A stretch of DNA of 38,053 nucleotides from Desulfuromonas sp. (lineage in GTDB: Bacteria; Desulfobacterota; Desulfuromonadia; Desulfuromonadales; UBA2294), in NCBI GenBank assembly GCA_002869615.1, contig PKUH01000039.1, positions 1 through 38,053 on the forward strand, read 5' to 3'. Positions 5,141-37,962 of this stretch are shown here, piece after piece. Position 1 is the stretch's first letter, and each line of letters begins with the position of its first letter. Made by a program: the position numbers and the translations under genes. The notes under the pieces were generated by a model. That model saw nothing but the letters and a program-made list of their open reading frames with translations, searched no databases and had not been told where the DNA came from.

Positions 5141-5613
5141 AGATTTCACTGCTCTGTATCGGCAAACTCTCCGCAGGCTGGCTCCAGGAGGGGGCGGGGG
5201 ATTATCAGAAAAGGCTCCAACGCTACCTGCCGATCGGGATTGAGGAGCTGAAAGAGCATAAGGCGGGCGGAAAAAAAGCCGATACTCGTAAAATTATTCA
5301 GCAGGAGGGCTCGCATCTGCTTGCCAGAGTGCCACGGGGAGCCTATACTGTTGCACTTGATGAACAGGGAGAGCTTTTCAGTTCGGAAGACCTGGCCGGC
5401 TTTATCGACCGGCACATGGTTGATGGAACGCCGGAGATCACGTTTATTATCGGCGGTGCATACGGACTGAGCGACGACGTTAAACAGGCCGCCCGGGTAA
5501 AGATGTCGCTGACACCGATGACGCTGACGCACCAGATGGCGCGCGTCTTACTGCTTGAACAGTTGTATCGGGGCATGACGATCCTGCGCAACGAACCATA
5601 CCACAACCGCTGA
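5137..5613 (+). CDS. rlmH: 23S rRNA (pseudouridine-1915-N3) methyltransferase RlmH
   Basis: SPOUT methyltransferase that modifies pseudouridine 1915 in helix 69 of 23S rRNA. The 158-residue product starts with GTG overlapping the rsfS stop. Typical features are VALDEQGELFSSEDLA, the SAM-binding FIIGGAYGL, and the C-terminal LLLEQLYRGMTILRNEPYHNR-like tail. The tail has an extra Asn in the usual YH(R/K) ending. It is cotranscribed with nadD and rsfS. Confidence 0.96.
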   Translation: MKISLLCIGKLSAGWLQEGAGDYQKRLQRYLPIGIEELKEHKAGGKKADTRKIIQQEGSHLLARVPRGAYTVALDEQGELFSSEDLAGFIDRHMVDGTPEITFIIGGAYGLSDDVKQAARVKMSLTPMTLTHQMARVLLLEQLYRGMTILRNEPYHNR

Positions 5614-5627
5614 ACAGGAAAGATTTA

Positions 5628-5981
5628 ATGAAAAAGAAAGATGTTGAAAAAGCAAAAAAGATGCTTTTACAGATGCGCCGTGAGGTAACCAGCGAGGTCC
5701 AGGAGAACTATGCCGCATCGCGTGAAATCGGCCAGAGCAACCTGCCCGATCTGGCCGACGTTTCGAGCAATGCCTACAGCCGGGAGATGCTGCTCAACCT
5801 GACCGACGCCCAGCACCGGAAACTCAAGGATATTGATGCCGCTCTGGAGCGCCTGGAAAATGACGAATACGGAATCTGTGCCAGCTGTGGTGACGATATC
5901 GCCCCGCGCCGCATGGAAGTCCGGCCTTTTTCCCGTTACTGTATTGAATGTAAAACCGATATCGAAAAATTTGGCGAATAA
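5628..5981 (+). CDS. DksA/TraR-type zinc-finger protein
   Basis: Small transcription factor of the DksA/TraR family, which acts through the secondary channel of RNA polymerase. The 117 residues contain a coiled coil (about 1-75) and a four-cysteine zinc finger CASC-x17-CIEC near the C-terminus. The usual acidic tip DxxDxA of DksA is replaced by PDLADVSS, so function as a full DksA is not assured. RBS AGGAAAG lies upstream of ATG. Same strand as rlmH (14 nt gap) and lapB (48 nt gap). Confidence 0.88.
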   Translation: MKKKDVEKAKKMLLQMRREVTSEVQENYAASREIGQSNLPDLADVSSNAYSREMLLNLTDAQHRKLKDIDAALERLENDEYGICASCGDDIAPRRMEVRPFSRYCIECKTDIEKFGE

Positions 5982-13666: not shown

Positions 13667-13804
13667 GAATTTTCACCTGGCACTTAACACCTGAATCCTG
13701 ACACTTTTCCCCGCCCCATCCCTGCCTTTCCGCTTGTACTTATGCGGCTATTTTGCTAGTTTACGAAGTTCTATTTTCGCGAAGAAAACTCGTTGGAGGA
13801 CGTG

Positions 13805-16585
13805 ATGGAATACAAGGACACGCTTAATCTGCCGCAAACCGAATTCCCGATGCGGGGCAACCTGCCGAACCGGGAGCCGGAATTTATCGAAAAGTGGCAG
13901 GAACTCGACCTGCAAGGGAAGATTGAGGAGGCCGGAGCCGGCCGCCCGAATTTCACCCTGCATGATGGCCCGCCGTATGCCAACGGTCACATCCACATCG
14001 GTCACGCCCTCAACAAGATCCTCAAGGATATCGTCATCAAGTCGAAGCGGATGCAGGGCTTCTACACCCCCTACGTTCCGGGTTGGGACTGTCACGGCCT
14101 GCCGATCGAGCTCAAGGTCGACCAGGAGCTCGGCAAGAAGAAACGCGAAATGAGCAAAGCCGAAATCCGCAAGGAGTGCCGCGCCTACGCCCAGAAGTGG
14201 ATCACGATCCAGAGCGAGGAGTTTCAACGCCTCGGCATCTTCGGTGACTGGGAGAACCCGTACCTGACGATGACCACCGATTACGAGGCGGCGACGGCCC
14301 GCGAGCTCGCCCGCTTTGCCGAACGCGGTTGCATGTACAAGGGCAAGAAACCGGTCCACTGGTGTCCGAGCTGCGTCACCGCCCTGGCCGAGGCCGAGGT
14401 TGAGTACGACGATCACACCTCGCCGTCGATCTACGTCAAGTTCCCGTTCACCGACGAACTGCCGACCGAACTTGCCGAGCTAAAGGGAAAGAAGCTCTCC
14501 TTCGTCATCTGGACGACGACGCCATGGACGATCCCGGCCAATCTCGCCGTCTGCCTGCATCCGGAGCTGCCGTATGTCGCGGTTGAAGTCGGCACCGATG
14601 TGCTGGTCATGGCCGAAGGGCTCTACGAGCAGGTGATGAAGAACCTCGAGATTGAGGACTACAAAGTTCTGGCAACCTTCCAGGCGCCGCTTTTCGAGAA
14701 GAAGACCTGCCGGCACCCGATCTACGACCGCGATTCTCTGCTGGTCCTCGGTGACTACGTCACCCTCGAGGCCGGCACCGGCTGTGTTCACACCGCTCCC
14801 GGCCACGGCCAGGATGACTACGTGACCGGCCTGAAGTACGGCCTTGAGATCTACAACCCGGTCGACGACTACGGGCGCTACCGCGAGGACCTTGAGTTCT
14901 TCGGCAAGATGAATGTCAAGAGTGACGCCAACCCGGCAGTCACCGCAAAACTGACTGAAGTCGGCGCCCTGCTCAGTGAAAGCAAGATGTCGCACAGCTA
15001 CCCGCACTGCTGGCGCTGCAAGAAACCGATCATCTTCCGCGCCACCGAGCAGTGGTTCATCTCGATGGAAGCGAACGAACTGCGCCAGAAATCGCTCAAG
15101 CATATCAACGACGTGCAGTGGATTCCGCACTGGGGTCGCGAGCGGATCTACAACATGATCGAGAACCGCCCCGACTGGTGCATCAGCCGCCAGCGGACCT
15201 GGGGGGTACCGATCACGGTGCTTTACTGCAAGAAGTGCGGCGAGGCGATTGCCGACGGCAAGGTGATGCATCACATCGCCGACCGGTTCGAACAGGGCGG
15301 CAGTGATATCTGGTTCGAGCAGGAGGCGAAAGAGCTGGTTCCGGCAGGGACCGCCTGCGGTGCCTGCGGTCATGACGACTTCGACAAGGAGATGGACATC
15401 CTCGATGTCTGGTTCGACTCCGGCGTCTCACACGCCGCCGTACTCGAGCAGCGCGATAACCTCAAGACCCCGGCCGATATGTACCTCGAGGGGAGCGACC
15501 AGCATCGTGGCTGGTTTCACTCGAGCCTGCTCGCTTCGGTCGGCACCCGCGACGTCGCTCCGTACAAGGCGGTTCTGACCCACGGCTTCGTGCTCGATGA
15601 AAAAGGGCGGCCGATGTCAAAATCGGTCGGCAATGTCGTCGCCCCGGAGAAGGTCATCAACAAGTTCGGCGCCGAGATCCTGCGCCTCTGGGTCGCCACC
15701 CAGGACTACCGCAACGACACCCGGGTCGGCGACCACATCCTGCAACAGGTCTCCGAGGCCTATCGCCGCATCCGCAATACCGCCCGTTACATCCTCGGCA
15801 ACCTCAGCGACTTCGATCCGGCGACCGATATGGTTGCGGCCGGCGACATGCAGGAGATCGACCGCTGGGCCGTCTCGCGGCTCGAGGATCTGGTCAGCCG
15901 GGTCGAGAAATCGTACGACGATTACGAGTTCCACGTGCTCTACCACGCCGTGCACAACTTCTGCTCGGTCGACATGAGCTCCTTTTATCTCGATATCCTC
16001 AAGGATCGGCTCTACACCACCAAACAAGCGAGCCCGGAACGGCGCAGCGCCCAGACCGCGATGTACATGATCATCGACGCCCTGACCCGCCTGGTCGCTC
16101 CGGTACTCTCCTTCACCGCCGACGAGATCTGGTGGCAGCTGCCGGGAGAGCGTGAAGAATCGGTGCATCTCGCCGGCTTCCCGCGCTTCGAAAAAAAGCT
16201 GCGTGATCCGGAACTCGAAGAGCGCTACAAGCAGCTGATCGCGATCCGCAGCGATGTCACCAAGGCCCTCGAGCTGGCCCGCAACGAAAAGACCGTCGGC
16301 CACTCCCTCGACGCCCGGGTCACCATCGCCGCCAGCGGCGACGCCAAAGCCCTGCTCGAGCAGTACCGGGATGAGCTTGCCACCCTGTTCATCGTCTCCC
16401 AGGCCGAATTGACCGACAGCCTCGGTGCCGAGGCCCAGAGCGGTGACGAGGTTGAAGGGCTCAAGGTTGCGGTCGCCAAGGCCGACGGCGAGAAGTGTGA
16501 GCGCTGCTGGAACTACAGGACGACCGTCGGTACCAACAGCGACCACCCGTCGATCTGTTCCAGCTGCAGCGATGCCCTGAGCTAA
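13805..16585 (+). CDS. ileS: Isoleucyl-tRNA synthetase
   Basis: Charges tRNA-Ile. The 926-residue class I synthetase has HIGH at 64-67 ([10 protein letters not shown]), the editing domain ([29 protein letters not shown]), the signature loop as PMSKS at 603-607 (KMSKS variant) and a C-terminal zinc site (CERCWNY and CSSC). ATG 13805 gives the usual [12 protein letters not shown] start; GGAGGA lies only 4 nt before it. An in-frame TTG at 13793 overlaps that Shine-Dalgarno and is rejected. lspA follows after 14 nt, the classic ileS-lspA pair. Confidence 0.97.
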
Positions 16586-16599
16586 GAGGTCTTTTCAGC

Positions 16600-17106
16600 A
16601 TGGCGGTAAAATACCGGATACTCCTGGCGGTCACTATTGTCTCGCTGGTCCTCGATCAGTGGACCAAGTGGCTGGTCGACCAGAAAATGGCGCTGCACGA
16701 ATCGATCCCGCTGATCGATAACTTTCTCGCCCTGACCTACGTACGCAACAAGGGCGCCGCCTTCGGTATCTTCGCCGACAGCTCGTTCCGGATCCCTTTT
16801 TTCATTACCGTATCAATCGCCGCCGTCATCGGCATCATCTGGTTCTACCGCAAGGTCGCAGAAGAGCAACGGCTGCTGCAGTGGGCCCTGGCCCTGGTCT
16901 TTTGCGGCGCCGTCGGCAACCTGATCGACCGGATCCGTTTCGGCGAAGTGATCGATTTTATCGACGTCCACTGGTATCAGCACCATTGGCCGGCCTTCAA
17001 CGTCGCCGATTCCTGTATCAGTGTCGGCGTCGCCCTGATGCTGGTCGATCTTCTGCGTGATGAGTGGCAGAAGAAAAAAGGGAAAGAGGCGGGTTCCGAA
17101 GCATAA
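16600..17106 (+). CDS. lspA: Lipoprotein signal peptidase (signal peptidase II)
   Basis: Inner-membrane aspartyl protease that removes signal peptides from prolipoproteins. The 168 residues have four membrane segments and the family motifs YVRNKGAAFGIF, GNLIDRIRFGEVIDFIDVHW (first catalytic Asp) and FNVADSCISVG (second catalytic Asp). Two lipoproteins elsewhere in the window (26549 and 36887) are plausible substrates. It is followed by the tRNA-Pro gene. Confidence 0.96.
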   Translation: MAVKYRILLAVTIVSLVLDQWTKWLVDQKMALHESIPLIDNFLALTYVRNKGAAFGIFADSSFRIPFFITVSIAAVIGIIWFYRKVAEEQRLLQWALALVFCGAVGNLIDRIRFGEVIDFIDVHWYQHHWPAFNVADSCISVGVALMLVDLLRDEWQKKKGKEAGSEA

Positions 17107-17172: not shown

Positions 17173-17249
<77 letters not shown>

Positions 17250-17410
17250 GTTATAAAAAGAGCGATCCTAAACAGGGTCGCTCTTTTGTTTTGGCCTCCG
17301 GGGCATGTCCGGGGAGTATGTCGTTCGGATGGTGTCTTTGGAGATGTTGGAAAGGCTGCCTATCCATGTTCCGGTCCGAAGTTTTTCTCCGGTGCTATTC
17401 CGTGGCAGAG
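17250..17410 (+). repeat. Left-end repeat of the tRNA-Pro blocks, copy 1
   Basis: The 160 nt after the tRNA (terminator, then a GC-rich stretch with tgtctttgg.gatgttgga, then a 40-nt core at 17360-17399) matches 24402-24550 after another tRNA fragment, and the core recurs at 19603-19642. The recurrence after tRNA fragments suggests a shared left end of mobile elements. Confidence 0.75.
17256..17290 (+). terminator. Terminator after tRNA-Pro
   Basis: Stem aaaagagcgatcct (17256-17269) with agggtcgctctttt (17274-17287), one G-T wobble, followed by gtttt. The same hairpin family follows each tRNA-Pro fragment downstream. Confidence 0.88.
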
Positions 17411-17421
17411 TGAATAATTGT

Positions 17422-18165
17422 TTAATGGACGTTCCTGTGAAAAGGCAGTGTATTTATCAAGACTGTATCTATAGCAGTACCCTTGAGTTTAGCGTATGAA
17501 GCTAAACTTTCTGAGTAAATACAAAGCTCCCTATAAGACAGATCTTCAATTCCTGCCAAGTAGCGTATTGTTTCTTCTGACACAAACAGTCCTATCTCAT
17601 CATATTTAAACTTCAAAACAGCGAACTTTGTTTCAAGGTCAGGCTCAAATCCAAACATTTCTCCCTTGCACAGGAAAGCTATGATTTCAGCATTGACCTT
17701 CCCAAGTCTTCTCGGATGGTCTCTTGACGAAACTACAATTGATGCCTTTTCAGCATAAAGATTTGACAATACCATCAGAGCTACCTCTTGAGCACATTCA
17801 TCTGATTCCAATTGGTCAATATCATCAAATAAAAGAACGTCTAGATGTGAAAAACTTTCAATGAAGTCATCTACCCGGTCAATACATTTAAAGCTTTTCA
17901 GCTCCGCAATAAACATCGTTGCAGTGTAATAGCAAAAAGTTTTGTCAGTCGAGCTTAGCAGATCGTTGCCAATTGCAGCTAACAGATGTGTTTTGCCTAG
18001 TCCTGGCCCACTGTAGAAAGACAGTAGATTAGAATCTTTGTGAAGACTAGCAACCCTTTTGGCAGCATCAAACAATTGCTGATTATTAGAACCTGTAACA
18101 AACTAATCAAAGGTGAATTTCGAAAAATTCAATTCATCTTGTATATCATTGAAGTGATTTTGCAT
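17422..18165 (-). pseudogene. DnaA/Hda-like AAA+ ATPase interrupted by an amber codon
   Basis: Reading on the minus strand from ATG 18165 (AAGGA 7 nt upstream) gives 20 codons ending ..KFTFD, then TAG at 18105-18103, then FVTGSNN and a full AAA+ domain. Around the stop the frame reads TFD-stop-FVTGSNNQ, matching the DnaA domain III start (..TFDxFVvGxsN..), so both sides are one gene. Walker A GPGLGKTH is at residues 53-60, Walker B LLFDDID at 111-117 and a sensor I VVSSRDHPRR follows. There is no DnaA DNA-binding domain, so the build is Hda-like (247 codons). A CAG-to-TAG change would explain it. The part after TAG could still be made from TTG 18075. It is the last gene of an AT-rich minus-strand cluster. 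Confidence 0.75.
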
Positions 18166-18210
18166 CTCATATTCCTTGAACTTCGCAACAAAATCCAACA
18201 GCAGACAGAA

Positions 18211-18951
18211 CTACCACTGGAGTTTGCGTTTCACATTCCCATCCAACTCTTTTCGAACTTTGCAGAAAAAGTCCTCAATGGCGACATTTGTAATTCCGCG
18301 CCCAAACATTTTTGCATAGCAGAACTCTAGTTTCCCATTGATATAATATTTTTCAAACTGTGTAGATTTAAGGTCACGATGTTCAAACGGCACAACTCTT
18401 ATTGATTCTCCATAGACAAACTTCTTCAAAAATGAAACCCACTCATTTTTGGCTCCCAAAATGATATGAAAATTTTCTCCAGTAAAGGCTTTTTTCATTT
18501 TGGGGTGTTTAGATATCGATGCAGGCCTAAGACTGTTGCACAATTCCATATACTCCCAATGTTTCAGACCTAAACCATTTTCAATCTTATTGTCCCAAGT
18601 ATTTTGAGTCTGCCTCCCTATCGGATAGAATTTTATATTGCATTCATTCTCTAAATAAATTCTATTGCCCCTGTAGTCTGCCCATTTTTTCAATGAACCA
18701 TCAATCAAAGTTGCCATGATTTTAGAAATCCAGATGCCAGGTTGACCGAGTTCTTCATTTTGCCCGATCTTCCTTTCCCAAATTTCTTCTTCTTTATTTT
18801 TGTAGAATTCAACCAACTCAGAATAGGTCTTAATTTCGCCCTTATCTCTTTTCCATAGCTCACCTCCGTCTTCAATAGTAAGAAAACAGATAGGCGCTGT
18901 TTCAGGGCCATCCCTCCGGACATAGTTCATGAAATACTCAATATCATTCAT
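18211..18951 (-). CDS. Hypothetical protein (246 aa) of an AT-rich cluster
   Basis: Not recognised. The 246-residue product starts MNDIEYFMNYVRRDGPET and is soluble and charged. Segments CFLTIEDGGELW, IKFYPIGRQ and FHIILGAKNEWVSFLKKF weakly recall the layout of uracil-DNA-glycosylase-fold proteins, but the catalytic motifs are not evident, so no function is given. It ends in TAG 45 nt before the start of the DnaA-like gene, in the same frame. Its base composition is far more AT-rich than the core genes before the tRNA. Confidence 0.65.
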   Translation of the reverse strand: MNDIEYFMNYVRRDGPETAPICFLTIEDGGELWKRDKGEIKTYSELVEFYKNKEEEIWERKIGQNEELGQPGIWISKIMATLIDGSLKKWADYRGNRIYLENECNIKFYPIGRQTQNTWDNKIENGLGLKHWEYMELCNSLRPASISKHPKMKKAFTGENFHIILGAKNEWVSFLKKFVYGESIRVVPFEHRDLKSTQFEKYYINGKLEFCYAKMFGRGITNVAIEDFFCKVRKELDGNVKRKLQW

Positions 18952-18966
18952 GCTAAATCTACTCCT

Positions 18967-19206
18967 TCACCAATCAAGCGCTCCCCTAACTACAAAAGGG
19001 TTTTCATCTGAATCAGGCATAGATATGGCTCTAGCCTGTATTTCAATACCGCCCAAACAACTATAAACAATTGACACCTGGATATCCCCCACATCGGAGC
19101 CTTCATTTGAGGCTGTCTCCTTCATCGAGGCTACCCAACTATCCAGTCTTTTTCTTTCATCATCTTTCAATTGAAGAACTTCATAAAAATCATCGTAACG
19201 CTGCAT
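18967..19206 (-). CDS. Hypothetical small protein (79 aa)
   Basis: Not recognised. Starts MQRYDDFYEVLQLKDDERKR; an acidic N-terminal helix is followed by a beta-rich part (VSIVYSCLGGIEIQARAIS). Two adjacent ATG codons (19209, 19206) follow AAAGGGGG; the second has the better 6-nt spacing. It ends 15 nt before the 246-residue gene and appears cotranscribed with it. Confidence 0.6.
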   Translation of the reverse strand: MQRYDDFYEVLQLKDDERKRLDSWVASMKETASNEGSDVGDIQVSIVYSCLGGIEIQARAISMPDSDENPFVVRGALDW

Positions 19207-19237
19207 CATCAACCCCCTTTAGATAGGAACAATCTAC

Positions 19238-19528
19238 CTACAATACCTGCACTACACAAAATCGACAACTTTCCCTATTGCCAACATCCTCCAGATATTC
19301 CTCAATCTGCCATTTCTCTTGCTGCCACTGTGGTCCATCTTGTATCAATGCCATCCTTGCTCCAAATGCAATCAAATCGGTAGCACAGTCAGTGACATAA
19401 ATTTCCTTGTCAGTCATACGGCTATAGAAACTGACGTCTTCATCACTAAAGCCATACATGAGAATTCTGTCTTTCCAGTTGTTAGGGTACTGTTTCCCGA
19501 CTTCAATACGTTCTACCCTCACTGCCAT
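19238..19528 (-). CDS. Hypothetical protein (96 aa)
   Basis: Not recognised. Starts MAVRVERIEVGKQYP at ATG 19528, with GGGAGGG 8 nt upstream; the frame is open 24 nt further but that start has no site. Contains a DCATDLIAFGARMAL segment and ends with CRFCVVQVL. First gene of a minus-strand group (three intact genes and the broken ATPase); the 40-nt repeat core lies upstream of it. Confidence 0.6.
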   Translation of the reverse strand: MAVRVERIEVGKQYPNNWKDRILMYGFSDEDVSFYSRMTDKEIYVTDCATDLIAFGARMALIQDGPQWQQEKWQIEEYLEDVGNRESCRFCVVQVL

Positions 19529-19602
19529 CAAACTTACCCTCCCTGTAGTCATACATTTACAATCTAAACCTAAATGCCATTAGAGACAAAATAAGTCACT
19601 AC

Positions 19603-19642
19603 CTATCCATGTTCCGGCCCGAAGTTTTTCTCCGGGGCTATT
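19603..19642 (+). repeat. Core of left-end repeat, copy 2
   Basis: 40-nt sequence starting ctatccatgttccggcccga, with one or two differences from 17360-17399 and 24502-24541. Here it stands without a tRNA fragment, between two minus-strand gene groups, so it may mark an internal junction. Confidence 0.8.
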
Positions 19643-19667
19643 TCGGGGCGGGGGGAAAGGGTAAAAC

Positions 19668-21017
19668 CTATTGAATATCACTATTGTCATAAGTCCAAAC
19701 ATACCCATGAGATTGTTTAGTCTTACCCTGTAAACAAGCCCGAATAGCACTACTGTATTCTTTCATTGCTGCAGTCAAAGATGGCCAACTTTTCACAACC
19801 TCACCATCAAACGTTTTTTGCAAAATAGGTCGACGGCTTTTTCTATTCCTATTTCGATTAGCACAAGAGGGGCACCAACTCCCTTGATAGATTTTGTTAG
19901 CAGATGTTTCCCATTTATTATTACAAAGATTGCATTGGAATTTATATTTTTCCATGACACCTAGCCAAACATTCGACAAACAGATACCCCCTTTGCTTAG
20001 GACATAGTTTTTTAGCCTCGTAAGGTTTGTTGTTTCTAGCGAAAAGTTCTCTATGGGGGTATCGAAACAGTTCAACAGTTCCGCCGCTTGTGGAAAACGT
20101 TTCTCAAAACGAGTCAAGACTTTCTTGATATGGTCAGGGACCATCTTCAAGCTCATACTTTCGAAAACCTCTACCAATAGGACACCCTGTTTCTCACACC
20201 ATTCTTTCTTGGCCCTGTCTCTTCTCTGCCTTTCTTCAAATTCCTTTACTTCCTTGTCAAAGGCATTGGGAAATTCATAGTGTTGATGTCCTTGGTATTC
20301 AAACGCCAAAGCTAGGTCTTCAAAATAAATATCAAGTTCAAGCCATGAGAACCCTTCAAAAGCATCATCCTTGATCTGAATTTTTCTAGATGTCCTTTCC
20401 AACACAAACTCGAGGTACCCCCTCAGAAGGTTTTCTCCTTTGAATGTGCAAAAAGGGCAACCTTTTTTCATCGAGCGCAACTGTGACAACAGAACATGAA
20501 ACGGAGGGTGGCCATCTCTACATTTGACAAGCAAACGTTTTCTTGTAGTTTCGAATGATTCAAAAACAGGCTCATATCCAAGATTTCTGATTTCATCATG
20601 TAGTTTTTCTATAGGTGTTCTCTGCCTTTCTGATTGCTCCTTCCCTGAGCAGGCAGGACAACCCTGCCCACTTTTGACATTATCAAGTCTAAGCTTCACA
20701 TCCTGTGAACACACTGGACACTTTACCAGGACAGGCTCTCTAGCATTTTTGTACTTTCCTTTGAGCTGATAACCGAACTTCCCGAACTCTACTTTTGCAT
20801 CTTCTTGAGAGAACCGCCTACTAGCAGCACGTTTTTCAATGGCACAAACTAAACACCCTTTTCCTTGTCCCAAGTCACCAACTCTCTTCTTGGTAATATG
20901 GCCACAGGCTATACCTTCGACTTCTATCGGTTGATTGGCGTTTTGATATTCACCTAACAACCTGAATCCGTGATCAAGAAATCTCTTTTCAACTTGCTCA
21001 TGAGTAAGCTTTTTCAA
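19668..21017 (-). CDS. Zinc-ribbon PD-(D/E)XK nuclease with NUMOD1-like tail
   Basis: Predicted DNA endonuclease of 449 residues. Three N-terminal zinc-ribbon/treble-clef units (C38..C55xxC58; C100xxC103..C120xxC123; C166..H170..C187xxC190) precede a restriction-type nuclease core with E227 and D229 in WLELDIYF, E240 in AFEYQGHQHY and a following D267xxK270 helix, then GVLLVEVFE. A fourth zinc ribbon (C362xxC365..C382xxC385) and a NUMOD1-like helix-turn-helix (about 398-442, KSWPSLTAAMKEYSSAIRAC then GYVW) close the protein. The NUMOD module is typical of homing endonucleases. The start is TTG 21017 with GAGGGGA close by, 6 nt after the previous gene's stop. Confidence 0.72.
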   Translation of the reverse strand: MKKLTHEQVEKRFLDHGFRLLGEYQNANQPIEVEGIACGHITKKRVGDLGQGKGCLVCAIEKRAASRRFSQEDAKVEFGKFGYQLKGKYKNAREPVLVKCPVCSQDVKLRLDNVKSGQGCPACSGKEQSERQRTPIEKLHDEIRNLGYEPVFESFETTRKRLLVKCRDGHPPFHVLLSQLRSMKKGCPFCTFKGENLLRGYLEFVLERTSRKIQIKDDAFEGFSWLELDIYFEDLALAFEYQGHQHYEFPNAFDKEVKEFEERQRRDRAKKEWCEKQGVLLVEVFESMSLKMVPDHIKKVLTRFEKRFPQAAELLNCFDTPIENFSLETTNLTRLKNYVLSKGGICLSNVWLGVMEKYKFQCNLCNNKWETSANKIYQGSWCPSCANRNRNRKSRRPILQKTFDGEVVKSWPSLTAAMKEYSSAIRACLQGKTKQSHGYVWTYDNSDIQ

Positions 21018-21023
21018 ATCCCC

Positions 21024-21458
21024 TCACAATTTTCTCTTCCAAAACTCGATAAGTTTTCCCAGAAACACATCGGCTGAAACTTCATTACCATCCGAGAGAA
21101 TGATATTCAATGGACGGGCAAAAGCATCACTGAATGCAGAGATGAAACCTGTTTGAGTTCTAGTTTTGGTATCCTTGTTTCCGAAATGCTTTGTGCCATT
21201 GGTCAAATGGCCTGCAACCTTCATGATCGAACAAATTTCTATATCCGATGGGTATAGACTTCGAAACTCGTCTTCTGAGCAACGGCTAAACTTCTTTCCT
21301 CCATGAACCCATTCATACAGGTGATACGCAAGTATTGTCGTCAACAATGCATGTCTACTTGAAGCGTTGTTTTCAAGGAATTCTTGATATTGAGGCAATA
21401 CCATCTGGTTGAAAAAATCAGATGCATTTTTGATATCGAAACTAGATTGGTGTTCCAC
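21024..21458 (-). CDS. Hypothetical protein (144 aa), all-helical, paired with the nuclease
   Basis: Family not named by me. GTG 21458 follows GGGGG by 4 nt. The helical product has RHALLTTILAYHLYEWVHGGKKF and HLTNGTKHF blocks, a pattern seen in uncharacterised helical proteins and loosely like HEPN folds, though no R-x4-6-H ribonuclease motif is clear. The stop lies 6 nt before the nuclease start and overlaps its Shine-Dalgarno, so the two genes form a tight pair. Confidence 0.62.
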   Translation of the reverse strand: MEHQSSFDIKNASDFFNQMVLPQYQEFLENNASSRHALLTTILAYHLYEWVHGGKKFSRCSEDEFRSLYPSDIEICSIMKVAGHLTNGTKHFGNKDTKTRTQTGFISAFSDAFARPLNIILSDGNEVSADVFLGKLIEFWKRKL

Positions 21459-21760: not shown

Positions 21761-21856
21761 GATATGGAATTGTCTCGTCAGCTATATCTCCAGATTGCGA
21801 GATATGGGTCCCAGTTTCACATTAAAACCGCCCCCGTGACAAAAAGACCAAATATC

Positions 21857-21907
21857 GCGCCACTTTATTTGGCGCAAAAAAGTGTTGCGCGCCACTTTAT
21901 TTGGCGC
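21857..21907 (+). promoter_or_regulatory. Double palindromic operator and possible promoter of the Fic gene
   Basis: Two direct copies of the palindrome gcgccactttatttggcgc (21857-21875 and 21889-21907) are 32 nt apart, about three helix turns. Between and after them, TTGCGC (21885-21890) and GATAAT (21908-21913) are 17 nt apart. Transcription would begin near 21920, the Fic ATG, hence possibly a leaderless mRNA. The winged-helix N-terminus of the Fic protein is the likely ligand. Confidence 0.6.
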
Positions 21908-21919
21908 GATAATGCCAAC

Positions 21920-23302
21920 ATGCCAAAACAAATCAAAACAGAAGAGTTATCGGGAATTCTGGAAGAGATCAAAAAGCACCCGGCAGGGATCGGCATTGAT
22001 GCCCTCCATGAAATCATGCAACAGTATGCAAGGCGGACCCTGCAAAGGCGTCTGGCTCTGCTTGTCGAGAAGGGCTTGCTGCTGGCTACGGGTAGCGGCC
22101 GAAGCCTGAAATACAAGATTGCGCCAATTCAAATCACCGCAGACGTGACCTTGCCACCGCTCATGGCCGAGGCTGAAGCAGAAACATATATTTCGATTTC
22201 TCCGGAAGCACAAGAAATAAAGGATCACGTTCGCCAAACCATCCAGCAACGGCCACCGACAGGCTACAACCCCTCTTTTCTTGAATCATACACTCCCAAC
22301 GAAACCTCTTTTCTATCGGAAGAAACAAGGCAACAGCTTCATCTTATCGGTCGGACGACGCAGAATGACCAACCGGCCGGAACTTTTGCGCGAGACATTC
22401 TCGGTCGTCTCCTCATCGACCTTTCATGGGCATCTTCACAACTGGAAGGGAATACCTACAGCCTTCTGGATACTCAAAAACTTATCGAATATGGGGAAGC
22501 CGCTGAAGGGAAAGATGCTCTTGAAACACAGATGATCCTGAACCACAAAGCCGCCATTGAAATGCTTATTGATCAAGTGGATGAAATCGGGTTCAACCGC
22601 TACACATTGCTGAACCTCCATGCGATCTTGTCAGATGGTCTCCTTCCTGATCCGAGAGATTGTGGCAGACTAAGGGAAAAGGCTGTCGGCATTGGCGGGA
22701 GCACTTATCTCCCATTGGCTTTGCCGCAAAAGATTGATGAACAATTCAATCTATTTCTTGAGAAAGCGCAAGCAATTTCCGACCCGTTTGAGCAAGCAAT
22801 TTTTTCAATGGTATTCATTCCGTATCTTCAACCTTTTTCAGACGTCAACAAACGGGTTTCCAGGCTTGTCGCAAATGTACCGCTGATTCTCAACAACCTG
22901 TGCCCGCTTTCGTTTATAGATGTACCGGAACATGCATATGTTGATGCCACACTCGGAGTTTATGAATTAAATCGTCCCGAGCTGCTGCGTGATGTTTTCA
23001 TCTGGGCATATGAAAGATCTTGCCAGCAATATCTCGCCATTCAACAAAGCCTGATCCCACCAGATTCTTTTCGACTCAGGTATCGAACAGTTTTATACGA
23101 AACCATCAGAGAGCTTGTTTCGGGAAACCGTAAAATAAACCCGGAAAATGTTCTTTCCATAGCAAATAAATCGGTTGACGAAAGCGACATGAACTCATTT
23201 GTAGAACTCGTTCAAAATGAAGCAGAGCTGCTCCATGAGGGGAACATCGCCCGCTTCGGCCTGCGCCCATCCGAGTTCAGGCGCTGGAAAGACAACAGAT
23301 GA
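21920..23302 (+). CDS. Fic-family protein with N-terminal winged helix and altered active site
   Basis: 460-residue protein: an HTH/winged-helix region (about 1-70, with RRTLQRRLALLVEKGLL), an inhibitory-type motif in SSQLEGNTYS, and a Fic core. The usual HPFxDGNGRxxR reads QPFSDVNKRVSR, with Gln304 at the catalytic histidine and Lys311 at the second glycine of the usual GNGR, so normal AMP transfer is doubtful. Related Fic proteins with a DVNKR motif are, to my knowledge, widespread. ATG 21920 is chosen because the 52-codon upstream extension runs through the double operator. No ribosome-binding site is visible. The stop lies 2 nt before a tRNA-Pro fragment. Confidence 0.85.
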   Translation: MPKQIKTEELSGILEEIKKHPAGIGIDALHEIMQQYARRTLQRRLALLVEKGLLLATGSGRSLKYKIAPIQITADVTLPPLMAEAEAETYISISPEAQEIKDHVRQTIQQRPPTGYNPSFLESYTPNETSFLSEETRQQLHLIGRTTQNDQPAGTFARDILGRLLIDLSWASSQLEGNTYSLLDTQKLIEYGEAAEGKDALETQMILNHKAAIEMLIDQVDEIGFNRYTLLNLHAILSDGLLPDPRDCGRLREKAVGIGGSTYLPLALPQKIDEQFNLFLEKAQAISDPFEQAIFSMVFIPYLQPFSDVNKRVSRLVANVPLILNNLCPLSFIDVPEHAYVDATLGVYELNRPELLRDVFIWAYERSCQQYLAIQQSLIPPDSFRLRYRTVLYETIRELVSGNRKINPENVLSIANKSVDESDMNSFVELVQNEAELLHEGNIARFGLRPSEFRRWKDNR

Positions 23303-23304
23303 TC

Positions 23305-23372
23305 TAGCGCAGTCTGGTAGCGCACTTGCTTCAGGAACAAGGGTTCGGAGGTTCCTCCTCTCGCCCCGACCA
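23305..23372 (+). pseudogene. Degenerate tRNA-Pro copy (fragment 1)
   Basis: 68 nt matching the real tRNA from tagcgcagtctggtagcgca to the CCA end. The 5' acceptor strand is missing, the T loop has lost about four bases, and the anticodon position reads cag instead of cgg, so it cannot be a working tRNA. Reads as an attachment-site duplication from element integration. Confidence 0.85.
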
Positions 23373-23377
23373 GTTAT

Positions 23378-23413
23378 AAAAAGAGCGACCCTATTTAGGA
23401 TCGCTCTTTTTAT
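23378..23413 (+). terminator. Terminator after tRNA fragment 1
   Basis: Stem aaaaagagcgaccct (23378-23392) with aggatcgctcttttt (23397-23411) and a T-rich end. It would end transcripts from the Fic gene. Related to the terminator of the real tRNA, with a diverged loop. Confidence 0.85.
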
Positions 23414-23458
23414 TGTCTTTCGGGACATGTTCGGAACAATTGCAGTCATCTTTTCCTG

Positions 23459-23486: not shown

Positions 23487-23533
23487 CAAAGAACGGCATA
23501 AATCTCGAGACATTTGTGTACAAAGGGAAAACA

Positions 23534-24346
23534 ATGATGCGCAAAACTATTTCTTTAACAGCACTACTGAGCTTTTTTTTGTTGATGCTAACAAGCATCA
23601 TCCTTTACATAATCCCGGCAGGGAGAGTTGCTTATTGGGCGGACTATCATCTGTGGGGCTTAAGCAAAACCCAATGGGGAAACCTGCATATAAATCTTGG
23701 CTTTCTGTTTTTCGTAACAATTCTGGTTCACTCCTATTACAACTGGAAAGCGATAACTACGTATTTAAAAAACAAGGCAAAAGAGTTCAGGATATTCACC
23801 AAAGATTTCAATATAGCCCTGATTTTGACCGCACTATTTTCATTGGGAACGCTATATGAGATACCACCTTTTGTAAATATTCTGCAGCTCGGCGAAAACA
23901 TCAGTGCCAAGGCTAACGCATTCTACGGCGAACCACCCTACGGACACGCAGAACTATCTTCATTACAGACTTTTACCAGCAAAATGGAGCTCGATCTTAC
24001 GCAAAGCAAAGAACGCTTGAGCAACTCCGGGATTCGTGTTGAAAACAGCGGACAATCTCTCCAGGAAATTGCGAAAGCTAATAATGTCTCGCCAAATGAT
24101 ATTTATCTGATAATTTCGCCACCCGGGGAGCGAGTAAAAACATTCCCGAAGGAACCTCCGGCGGGCCTCGGGCAACGCGCCCTTATTGATCTTTGCCAGG
24201 ACTACTCTGTCAGTATCAAAAAGGTTCTTATGATTCTGGCTGACAACGATATTGAAGCTAATGAATCAATGAGTATCAAAGAAATAGCAAATGTTGCAGG
24301 AAAAGATCCTTTCACCGTTTATGAACTGATTCTAAACCAACTGTGA
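23534..24346 (+). CDS. DUF4405-type membrane protein
   Basis: 270-residue protein. Three to four N-terminal membrane segments (about 4-25, 42-65, 85-105) with histidines in LHINLG and ILVHSYYNWK, the pattern of the DUF4405 family, which looks like a b-haem-binding cytochrome fold. The soluble C-terminal part has two short repeats of HTH/LysM-like look (SLQEIAKANNVSPNDIYLI and SIKEIANVAGKDPFTVYELI). AAGGGA precedes two adjacent ATG codons (23534, 23537); either may be used. It is the only gene between two tRNA-Pro fragments and has its own promoter. Confidence 0.75.
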   Translation: MMRKTISLTALLSFFLLMLTSIILYIIPAGRVAYWADYHLWGLSKTQWGNLHINLGFLFFVTILVHSYYNWKAITTYLKNKAKEFRIFTKDFNIALILTALFSLGTLYEIPPFVNILQLGENISAKANAFYGEPPYGHAELSSLQTFTSKMELDLTQSKERLSNSGIRVENSGQSLQEIAKANNVSPNDIYLIISPPGERVKTFPKEPPAGLGQRALIDLCQDYSVSIKKVLMILADNDIEANESMSIKEIANVAGKDPFTVYELILNQL

Positions 24347-24355
24347 AGTTACATT

Positions 24356-24402
24356 CTGCTTCGGGAGCAAGGGTACGGAGGTTCCTCCTGCCGCCCCGAC
24401 CG
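24356..24402 (+). pseudogene. Degenerate tRNA-Pro copy (fragment 2)
   Basis: 47 nt from the anticodon arm (tgcttcgggagcaagg) to the 3' end, here ccgaccgg, with a T-loop deletion like fragment 1. Begins 9 nt after the DUF4405 stop. Confidence 0.85.
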
Positions 24403-24550
24403 GTTATCAATAGAGCGATCCTGAACAGAATCGCTCTATTGTTTGGGAGGCCGGGGAGGCGGTCATGAGGACGGTGTCTTTGGGGATGTTGGAGAACCTA
24501 CCTATCCATATTCCGGTCCGAAGTTTTTCTCCGGGGCTATTCCAGGGCGT
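24402..24550 (+). repeat. Left-end repeat of the tRNA-Pro blocks, copy 3
   Basis: About 150 nt matching 17250-17410 with scattered differences, including the 40-nt core (24502-24541). Both copies directly follow tRNA-Pro sequence. Confidence 0.75.
24409..24445 (+). terminator. Terminator after tRNA fragment 2
   Basis: Stem aatagagcgat (24409-24419) with atcgctctatt (24430-24440), followed by gttt. Same hairpin family as after the real tRNA. Confidence 0.7.
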
Positions 24551-24565
24551 GTAAACTCATTGGTG

Positions 24566-27082: not shown

Positions 27083-27126
27083 GCGAATTTTCAATTTACA
27101 TTCGAGAAGCGCCACCCGGATGCGTC

Positions 27127-27175
27127 CTTGCTTCGGGAGCAAAGGGTCGGAGGTTCAATTTTCTCGCCCCGACCA
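27127..27175 (+). pseudogene. Degenerate tRNA-Pro copy (fragment 4)
   Basis: 49 nt from cttgcttcgggagcaa to the CCA end, closer to the real tRNA than fragments 1 and 2 (T loop gttcaattttc, full length). Lies 45 nt after the lipoprotein stop. The last copy, so probably the outer edge of the island. Confidence 0.85.
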
Positions 27176-27187
27176 GTTAATACAAGG

Positions 27188-27217
27188 GAGCGGCCTTTAG
27201 GGGCCGCTCTTTTTTTG
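27188..27217 (+). terminator. Terminator after tRNA fragment 4
   Basis: Stem agcggcc (27189-27195) with ggccgct (27202-27208) followed by eight or more T. The stem sequence differs from the aaaagagcgatcct family, as expected if it belongs to the flanking chromosome or an older element. Confidence 0.9.
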
Positions 27218-37522: not shown

Positions 37523-37572
37523 TTTACCAAACCCGGATCGCTACCAGCTTTTCATTACAACCAGGAAGAGTC

Positions 37573-37669
37573 AGGAGCCCGCCGTTCGATAGGAGCGACC
37601 TTGACTGGTTGGATGGAGACGCTGTCAGGTGGGGACACTGCCCGAGTTAAGGGAAGTCTCTCCTGAAGA
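37573..37669. repeat. 97-nt dispersed repeat, copy A
   Basis: Starts aggagcccgccgttcgatag and ends tcctgaaga; matches copy B at 37865-37962 over its whole length with scattered changes, both including gaccttga.tggttgga and caggtggggacac. Confidence 0.75.
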
Positions 37670-37779: not shown

Positions 37780-37864
37780 TGCGCAGGGAGGGAACCTGAT
37801 CATCAGGCGGGCTTGCCGGGGTGTCTTTCTTTTGCTTCCTTTTCCTAGACAAGTAAGAAAAGGG

Positions 37865-37962
37865 AGGAGCTCGCCGCGCGATACCGGCGACCTTGATTGG
37901 TTGGACAGGGATGATGCCAGGTGGGGACACGATCCGAAGTTCAGGGAAGTGTCCCCTGAAGA
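37865..37962. repeat. 97-nt dispersed repeat, copy B
   Basis: Second copy. Its right half is palindromic: ggggacac (37923-37930) pairs with gtgtcccc (37949-37956), a REP-like hairpin that is degraded in copy A. Confidence 0.75.

Follow-up and report, generated by a model that had tools for sequence, protein, structure and literature searches.

Six minus-strand genes behind tRNA-Pro(CGG) in a Desulfuromonas sp. contig: probable cargo cassettes of a composite island without an integrase

The window considered here is the entire 38,053-bp contig PKUH01000039.1 of Desulfuromonas sp. (assembly GCA_002869615.1, a draft genome of 121 contigs), and our subject is a cluster of six minus-strand open reading frames (ORFs) that lies behind a complete tRNA-Pro(CGG) gene. 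The cluster falls into two groups. Group A contains four genes (17422-19552) with spacers of 15-46 nt, and Group B contains two genes (19668-21017 and 21024-21458) with a gap of 6 nt. The G+C content is 37-43% over 17.5-21.5 kb, as against 53-63% on the side of the core genes ileS and lspA, and the drop (∼60% to 37-43%) occurs directly behind the tRNA gene. A preliminary description had already reported six genes in one direction and two close-spaced groups, AT-rich against the core and situated in an island; the ORFs, the base composition and the tRNA-Pro gene with its displaced copies bear this out. The features are given below, with the cluster and the joints of the island first and three neighbouring genes after them.

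17173-17249, plus strand: complete tRNA-Pro(CGG), left boundary of the island (ARAGORN; Rfam tRNA, 67 bits)
17253-17287: terminator hairpin, directly after tRNA-Pro
17356-17414: D3 copy 1, 59 nt, behind tRNA-Pro
17422-18165, minus strand: gene for a DnaA-type AAA+ domain (Pfam Bac_DnaA, 5e-20), with an in-frame TAG at codon 21
18211-18951, minus strand: P0001, orphan of 246 aa, coding by codon test
18967-19206, minus strand: P0002, 79 aa, coding by codon test
19238-19552, minus strand: P0003, orphan of 104 aa, start probably at the second Met
19599-19657: D3 copy 2, at the joint that separates Groups A and B; its identity to copies 1 and 3 is 86-92%
19668-21017, minus strand: zinc-ribbon nuclease of 449 aa, with three ribbons, a Vsr/EDxHD-like domain (about residues 190-315), a DUF4379 ribbon and a weak NUMOD-like tail
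21024-21458, minus strand: P0005, 144 aa, all-helical, with a HEPN-like predicted fold
23305-23434, plus strand: displaced tRNA-Pro (nt 8-76) with terminator, 86% identical to 17180-17312
24357-24556, plus strand: second displaced tRNA-Pro 3' part with terminator and D3 copy 3
27108-27216, plus strand: third displaced tRNA-Pro remnant with terminator, the last traceable joint
13793-16585: ileS, core gene
16600-17106: lspA, core gene, between ileS and tRNA-Pro
21764-23302, plus strand: Fic-family gene (Pfam Fic, 8.5e-9; PADLOC SoFic, 3e-12), in the same island segment as Group B

The island extends past the six genes to 23305, and its joints can be traced to ∼27216. A full joint of ∼210 nt consists of the tRNA-Pro 3' end, the terminator and D3, while some joints retain D3 only, and the cargo between joints can be as small as a single gene. 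The decayed tRNA-Pro copies begin either at nucleotide 8 or at the anticodon stem. The genome contains three copies of D3, all on this contig and all at joints. Because a complete tRNA-Pro gene stands on the left, three decayed tRNA-Pro and terminator copies stand on the right, and D3 occurs only at the joints, we consider the six genes to be, with good probability, two unrelated cargo cassettes in a composite tRNA-Pro(CGG) island and not one system. Identification of D3 as an integron attC site was rejected because no RYYYAAC/GTTRRRY pair was found by eye. In bacteria, tRNA genes are sites where foreign DNA routinely accumulates, and the joints suggest that this composite, integrase-less island would have been built through successive insertions at tRNA-Pro(CGG), a tandem accretion.

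A congener (G001; L024/L043) has the same gene order, ileS-lspA-tRNA-Pro, as do three further genomes from this taxonomic order (L032-L034). In alignments of several genomes of the order, D3 corresponds to the distal part of the region 3' of tRNA-Pro. At the tRNA-Pro loci of G001 and G031, pairs of D3 flank different short AT-rich cargo, which is oriented opposite to the tRNA, like Group A. The window and the G031 locus also have a DUF4405-like gene in common (23516-24346 in the window, 12908-13744 in L116; 79% identity). G031 belongs to another family, and ileS of the window is only 61-63% identical to that of other families of the order (L032-L034); the shared gene points to transfer at this locus. 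Close to tRNA-Pro, both G031 and G013 have genes for P4-type integrases.

Degenerate copies of the tRNA-Pro 3' end and terminator are present in large numbers on several contigs of three relatives (L044, L045, L046 and L047 in G001; L050, L051, L111, L112 and L113 in G031; L048 in G010), often just behind stop codons. Many of these copies are near contig ends, so that a single long array in fragments would look the same as true dispersal; contig C58 of G001, where core-like hypothetical genes lie between tRNA-Pro copies, is a possible exception. Some copies are preceded by a conserved stretch of ∼70 nt, GGTACGT...GAGTGAACG.AGTGAACG (L043 ∼5738-5804; L044 18632-18707; L050 ∼5530-5602; L051 ∼550-619), which is possibly an element end with integrase-binding repeats. 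No account of tRNA-Pro arrays in this lineage came up in a literature search.

All four frames of Group A have the best codon log-odds among the six possible frames, and a 251-codon open frame is longer than any in 500 shuffles (longest 199). The preliminary description had listed three unknown proteins in this group, and they remain without family matches. P0001 has no match in four family libraries, the PDB, phages, plasmids, viral contigs, 147 relatives or 385 genomes of the phylum, and its single-sequence AlphaFold model is unusable (predicted local distance difference test score, pLDDT, of 31). P0003 has no match in families, viral contigs, plasmids or 375 genomes of the phylum. P0002 matches no family above noise in the family libraries; it was not used to search genomes.

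The fourth gene of Group A starts at the ATG at 18165, and the 217-aa ORF at 17422-18075 is only the part that follows the TAG. Its product was called a DnaA/Hda-like ATPase in the preliminary description; the AAA+ domain is real, but it is closer to DnaA than to Hda and the gene is interrupted. The DnaA model TIGR00362 matches with E=1e-32 and 113.9 bits (cut-off 343.9), and the Hda model TIGR03420 with 2e-13 and 50 bits (equivalog cut-off 194.8), so that the protein is assigned neither as full DnaA nor as Hda; there is also weak similarity to DnaC-like helicase loaders. With DnaA (and with Hda and the IstB helicase-loader ATPases) it shares Walker A and B, the N-box TFDxFVTGSxNQ and the sensor 2 arginine. 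It differs from DnaA in that only the AAA+ part is present (domains I, II and IV are absent), the TAG falls inside the N-box, and the box VII arginine region is not conserved. The interrupted motif reads TFD(stop)FVTG, compared with TFDEFVTG in the host DnaA, whose corresponding region is TFDEFVTGSSNQ, and the stretch aligned with the host box VII region RLRSRFEWG reads AEIIAFLCKGEMF. The gene may thus be disabled or expressed only in shortened form.

In Group B, the presence of a real nuclease with four zinc ribbons, as described before, is upheld by four CxxC/CxxxH pairs, and the CapR and DUF4379 ribbons score above the Pfam cut-offs. The NUMOD-like tail that had also been described is only a weak match (PF22083, E=0.025, under the cut-off). 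HNH/endonuclease families of PHROG match the protein at 6e-54, and its relatives are very common on viral contigs; a scan of the genome contigs with the nuclease alone gave no match. In an alignment with phage and plasmid relatives, nine homologues all keep residues D229, E240, Q245, H246, D267 and K270, and the same pattern is mostly repeated in 14 viral relatives. In Enterococcus phage 113, a relative that lies between two pieces of terL bears the annotation of a group I intron Vsr homing endonuclease. From the invariant core residues, the viral pattern and the phage annotation, the nuclease therefore likely belongs to the EDxHD family. Its resemblance to homing endonucleases of the EDxHD (Vsr-like) type, for example I-Bth0305I (PMC3943268), would lie in a core with conserved acidic residues and a QH motif, in DNA-binding regions of several parts that include zinc ribbons, and in related genes that are abundant in phages, one of them inside a split terL. 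It differs in being free-standing in a chromosomal island, with ribbons on both sides of the core and a HEPN-like gene next to it. In our proposed scheme for cassette B, a long DNA target would be bound through the ribbons and the C-terminal module and cut by the Vsr/EDxHD-like centre; cutting would favour the spread or retention of the carrier DNA, or destroy competing DNA.

The tight pairing of this nuclease with a 144-residue helical protein, P0005, was correctly described before: the gap is 6 nt and P0005 is predicted to be all-helical. Its AlphaFold (AF2) model from 12 sequences has a pLDDT of 84, and the matches in a second structural comparison are led by HEPN proteins (VIA Z of 7.1 and 6.8 over 109 residues; PDB 2hsb and 8yuf). 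The likeness to HEPN is in the predicted helical arrangement only. The Rx4-6H (RxxxxH) motif of HEPN RNases is not conserved, there is no invariant Arg in the P0005-family alignment (A3), and the family instead has the motif AYHLxEW ... NGxKHF. The predicted fold suggests a possible HEPN-like function.

The nearest homologue of P0005 (64% identity) is in L055, from a metagenome-assembled genome of Armatimonadota, where a PIN-like gene lies upstream and the flanks contain no nuclease of the window type. Distant homologues lie beside a patatin and a nucleotidyltransferase gene (L060 and L011; a cyclic-oligonucleotide-based anti-phage signalling system, CBASS), an AbiE-like pair (L059) or HNH-like genes (L056 and L054), or beside nothing recurrent; where these neighbours are unannotated, their identities are our own reading of the sequences. 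Look-alikes in G126, G177 and G180 (E ∼0.005) were discarded as chance matches inside unrelated proteins. P0005 homologues elsewhere occur without a nuclease of the window type, and none of 80 loci with viral nuclease relatives has a P0005 homologue; thus, on present evidence, the pair appears to be a local association. P0005 itself would be an independent HEPN-like module, likely of defence or accessory function and probably co-transcribed with the nuclease; a defence role is possible given the CBASS, AbiE or nuclease genes beside its family in several genomes, and the nuclease too may have such a role.

The idea that all six genes form a single operonic defence or maintenance system, as the preliminary description suggested, has the shared strand, base composition and adjacency in its favour. 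Against it stand the D3 joint between the two groups, the interrupted ATPase gene, and the fact that neither Group A nor the two groups together turned up in another genome. Neither the pair nor the six-gene set, which had been proposed as units that might recur near defence genes, was found again in what was searched; homologues of the nuclease and of P0005 largely occur apart, which is in the main the outcome that the preliminary description had named as refuting its reading. PADLOC made no defence-system call on the six proteins and gave only a homing-endonuclease (HEase) model match of 2.6e-4, to the nuclease, and weaker matches. We regard a single system as very improbable. What stands of the anti-phage or element-maintenance profile is that the genes are mobile cargo and that P0005 has relatives near CBASS, AbiE and HNH-like genes; what is not supported is the cluster as one defence system. 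An explanation restricted to Group A is that it served a former integrative element as its module for replication or maintenance, in which the ATPase loads the helicase at the element origin and the small proteins are origin-binding or copy-control factors. The kinship of the AAA+ domain to DnaA and, more weakly, to DnaC-like loaders is consistent with this, as is the four-gene operon structure with its coding signal. However, the TAG in the N-box, the lack of the DNA-binding domain IV, the replacement of the box VII arginine region, the absence of homologues for the partners searched (P0001 and P0003) and the failure to see a relaxase or an origin make this explanation rather unlikely.

For Group B, a two-gene anti-phage system could be envisaged in which the nuclease recognises and cuts invading DNA and P0005 is an RNA-cutting effector or a regulator. 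The tight coupling, the HEPN-like fold, the genes found beside other members of the P0005 family, and the Fic gene that comes next in the same segment would fit such a system. It is nevertheless doubtful in view of the nuclease-free flanks of the closest P0005 homologue, the lack of the partner at all 80 viral loci, the absence of a PADLOC system and the missing RxxxxH residues. A further and equally speculative proposal concerns the joints: the ∼210-nt unit of tRNA-Pro 3' end, terminator and D3 may serve a cassette system of the order as its recombination site. Integrase-less cassettes of one to four genes, each closed by the site, would be inserted in trans, at tRNA-Pro and secondarily at other places. 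The logic would be comparable to that of integrons, but with a site derived from a tRNA. We think it improbable in this full form, and yet the joint is the most interesting lead at this locus, as a putative recombination site with different cargo in several genomes; the cluster is otherwise ordinary island cargo.

Several observations weigh against our preferred reading of two cassettes in a composite island, or against the roles assigned to its parts. No Phage_integrase was found in the window, which leaves an island without an integrase, and the tRNA copies could stem partly from tandem tRNA duplication or homologous recombination. Since the assembly is a draft, the TAG may reflect an error of sequencing; alternatively, a TTG downstream of it could be the translation start. 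For P0005, Foldseek gives E >1, and HEPN Z scores of at most 7.1 are within the range of ordinary helical bundles and below a diagnostic level. When the nuclease alignments were used for profile searches of solved structures, no EDxHD entry was matched. Finally, an intron around the nuclease (group I or other) was sought and rejected for lack of an Rfam match in 16.9-27.6 kb, a weak negative, since the intron annotated in L015 likewise escaped Rfam at the gathering threshold.

Among known elements, the two-cassette island most resembles cis-mobilizable elements (CIMEs) and the accretion of islands at tRNA genes (PMC5704250; PMC4383910, Islander). As in CIMEs, the segments lack an integrase and lie between an intact tRNA gene and displaced pieces of it, with several units in tandem and cargo that varies at the same locus in relatives; there is no integrase between the att-like ends, yet integrases lie at the same tRNA in relatives. 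It differs in that its joints carry the conserved tRNA-derived unit, or D3 only, and that its cargo goes down to one gene. Within it, cassette A would be an operon of three unknown proteins and a DnaA AAA+ fragment that once maybe served replication or helicase loading of an element, and whose ATPase now looks disabled by the stop codon. Cassette B would encode a free-standing endonuclease of the homing type.

The stop codon of the neighbouring Fic gene lies 2 nt ahead of the tRNA-Pro remnant at 23305. A Fic-family gene in G010 (L048, 7191-8345) likewise has its stop within 3 nt of a tRNA-Pro remnant; the possibility that the two are one mobile gene was rejected, the proteins being only 22% identical. 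Two copies of the palindromic GCGCCACTTTATTTGGCGC (in 21856-21912) lie just 5' of ATG codons at the beginning of the window Fic gene; they resemble operator sites and suggest that the real start is later than 21764. Elsewhere in the same genome, a dispersed repeat around TTATTATTAATCCTACTATTTCTAAT occurs on contigs C69, C82 and C110 (L107 at 3280 and 4576, L108 at 2025, L109 at 5649), and it also follows some tRNA-Pro copies in G001. Near the end of the contig there is a direct repeat of 89 nt (37557-37645 and 37849-37937; 75% identical, 292 nt apart).

The analysis resolves a defence-like operon into independent pieces and suggests a route for their assembly. Taken by itself, the P0005 family is a candidate for a HEPN-like defence accessory. 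If units bounded by tRNA-Pro and D3 are mobilised in trans, this would explain how single-gene cargo without an integrase builds up at tRNA genes in this lineage.

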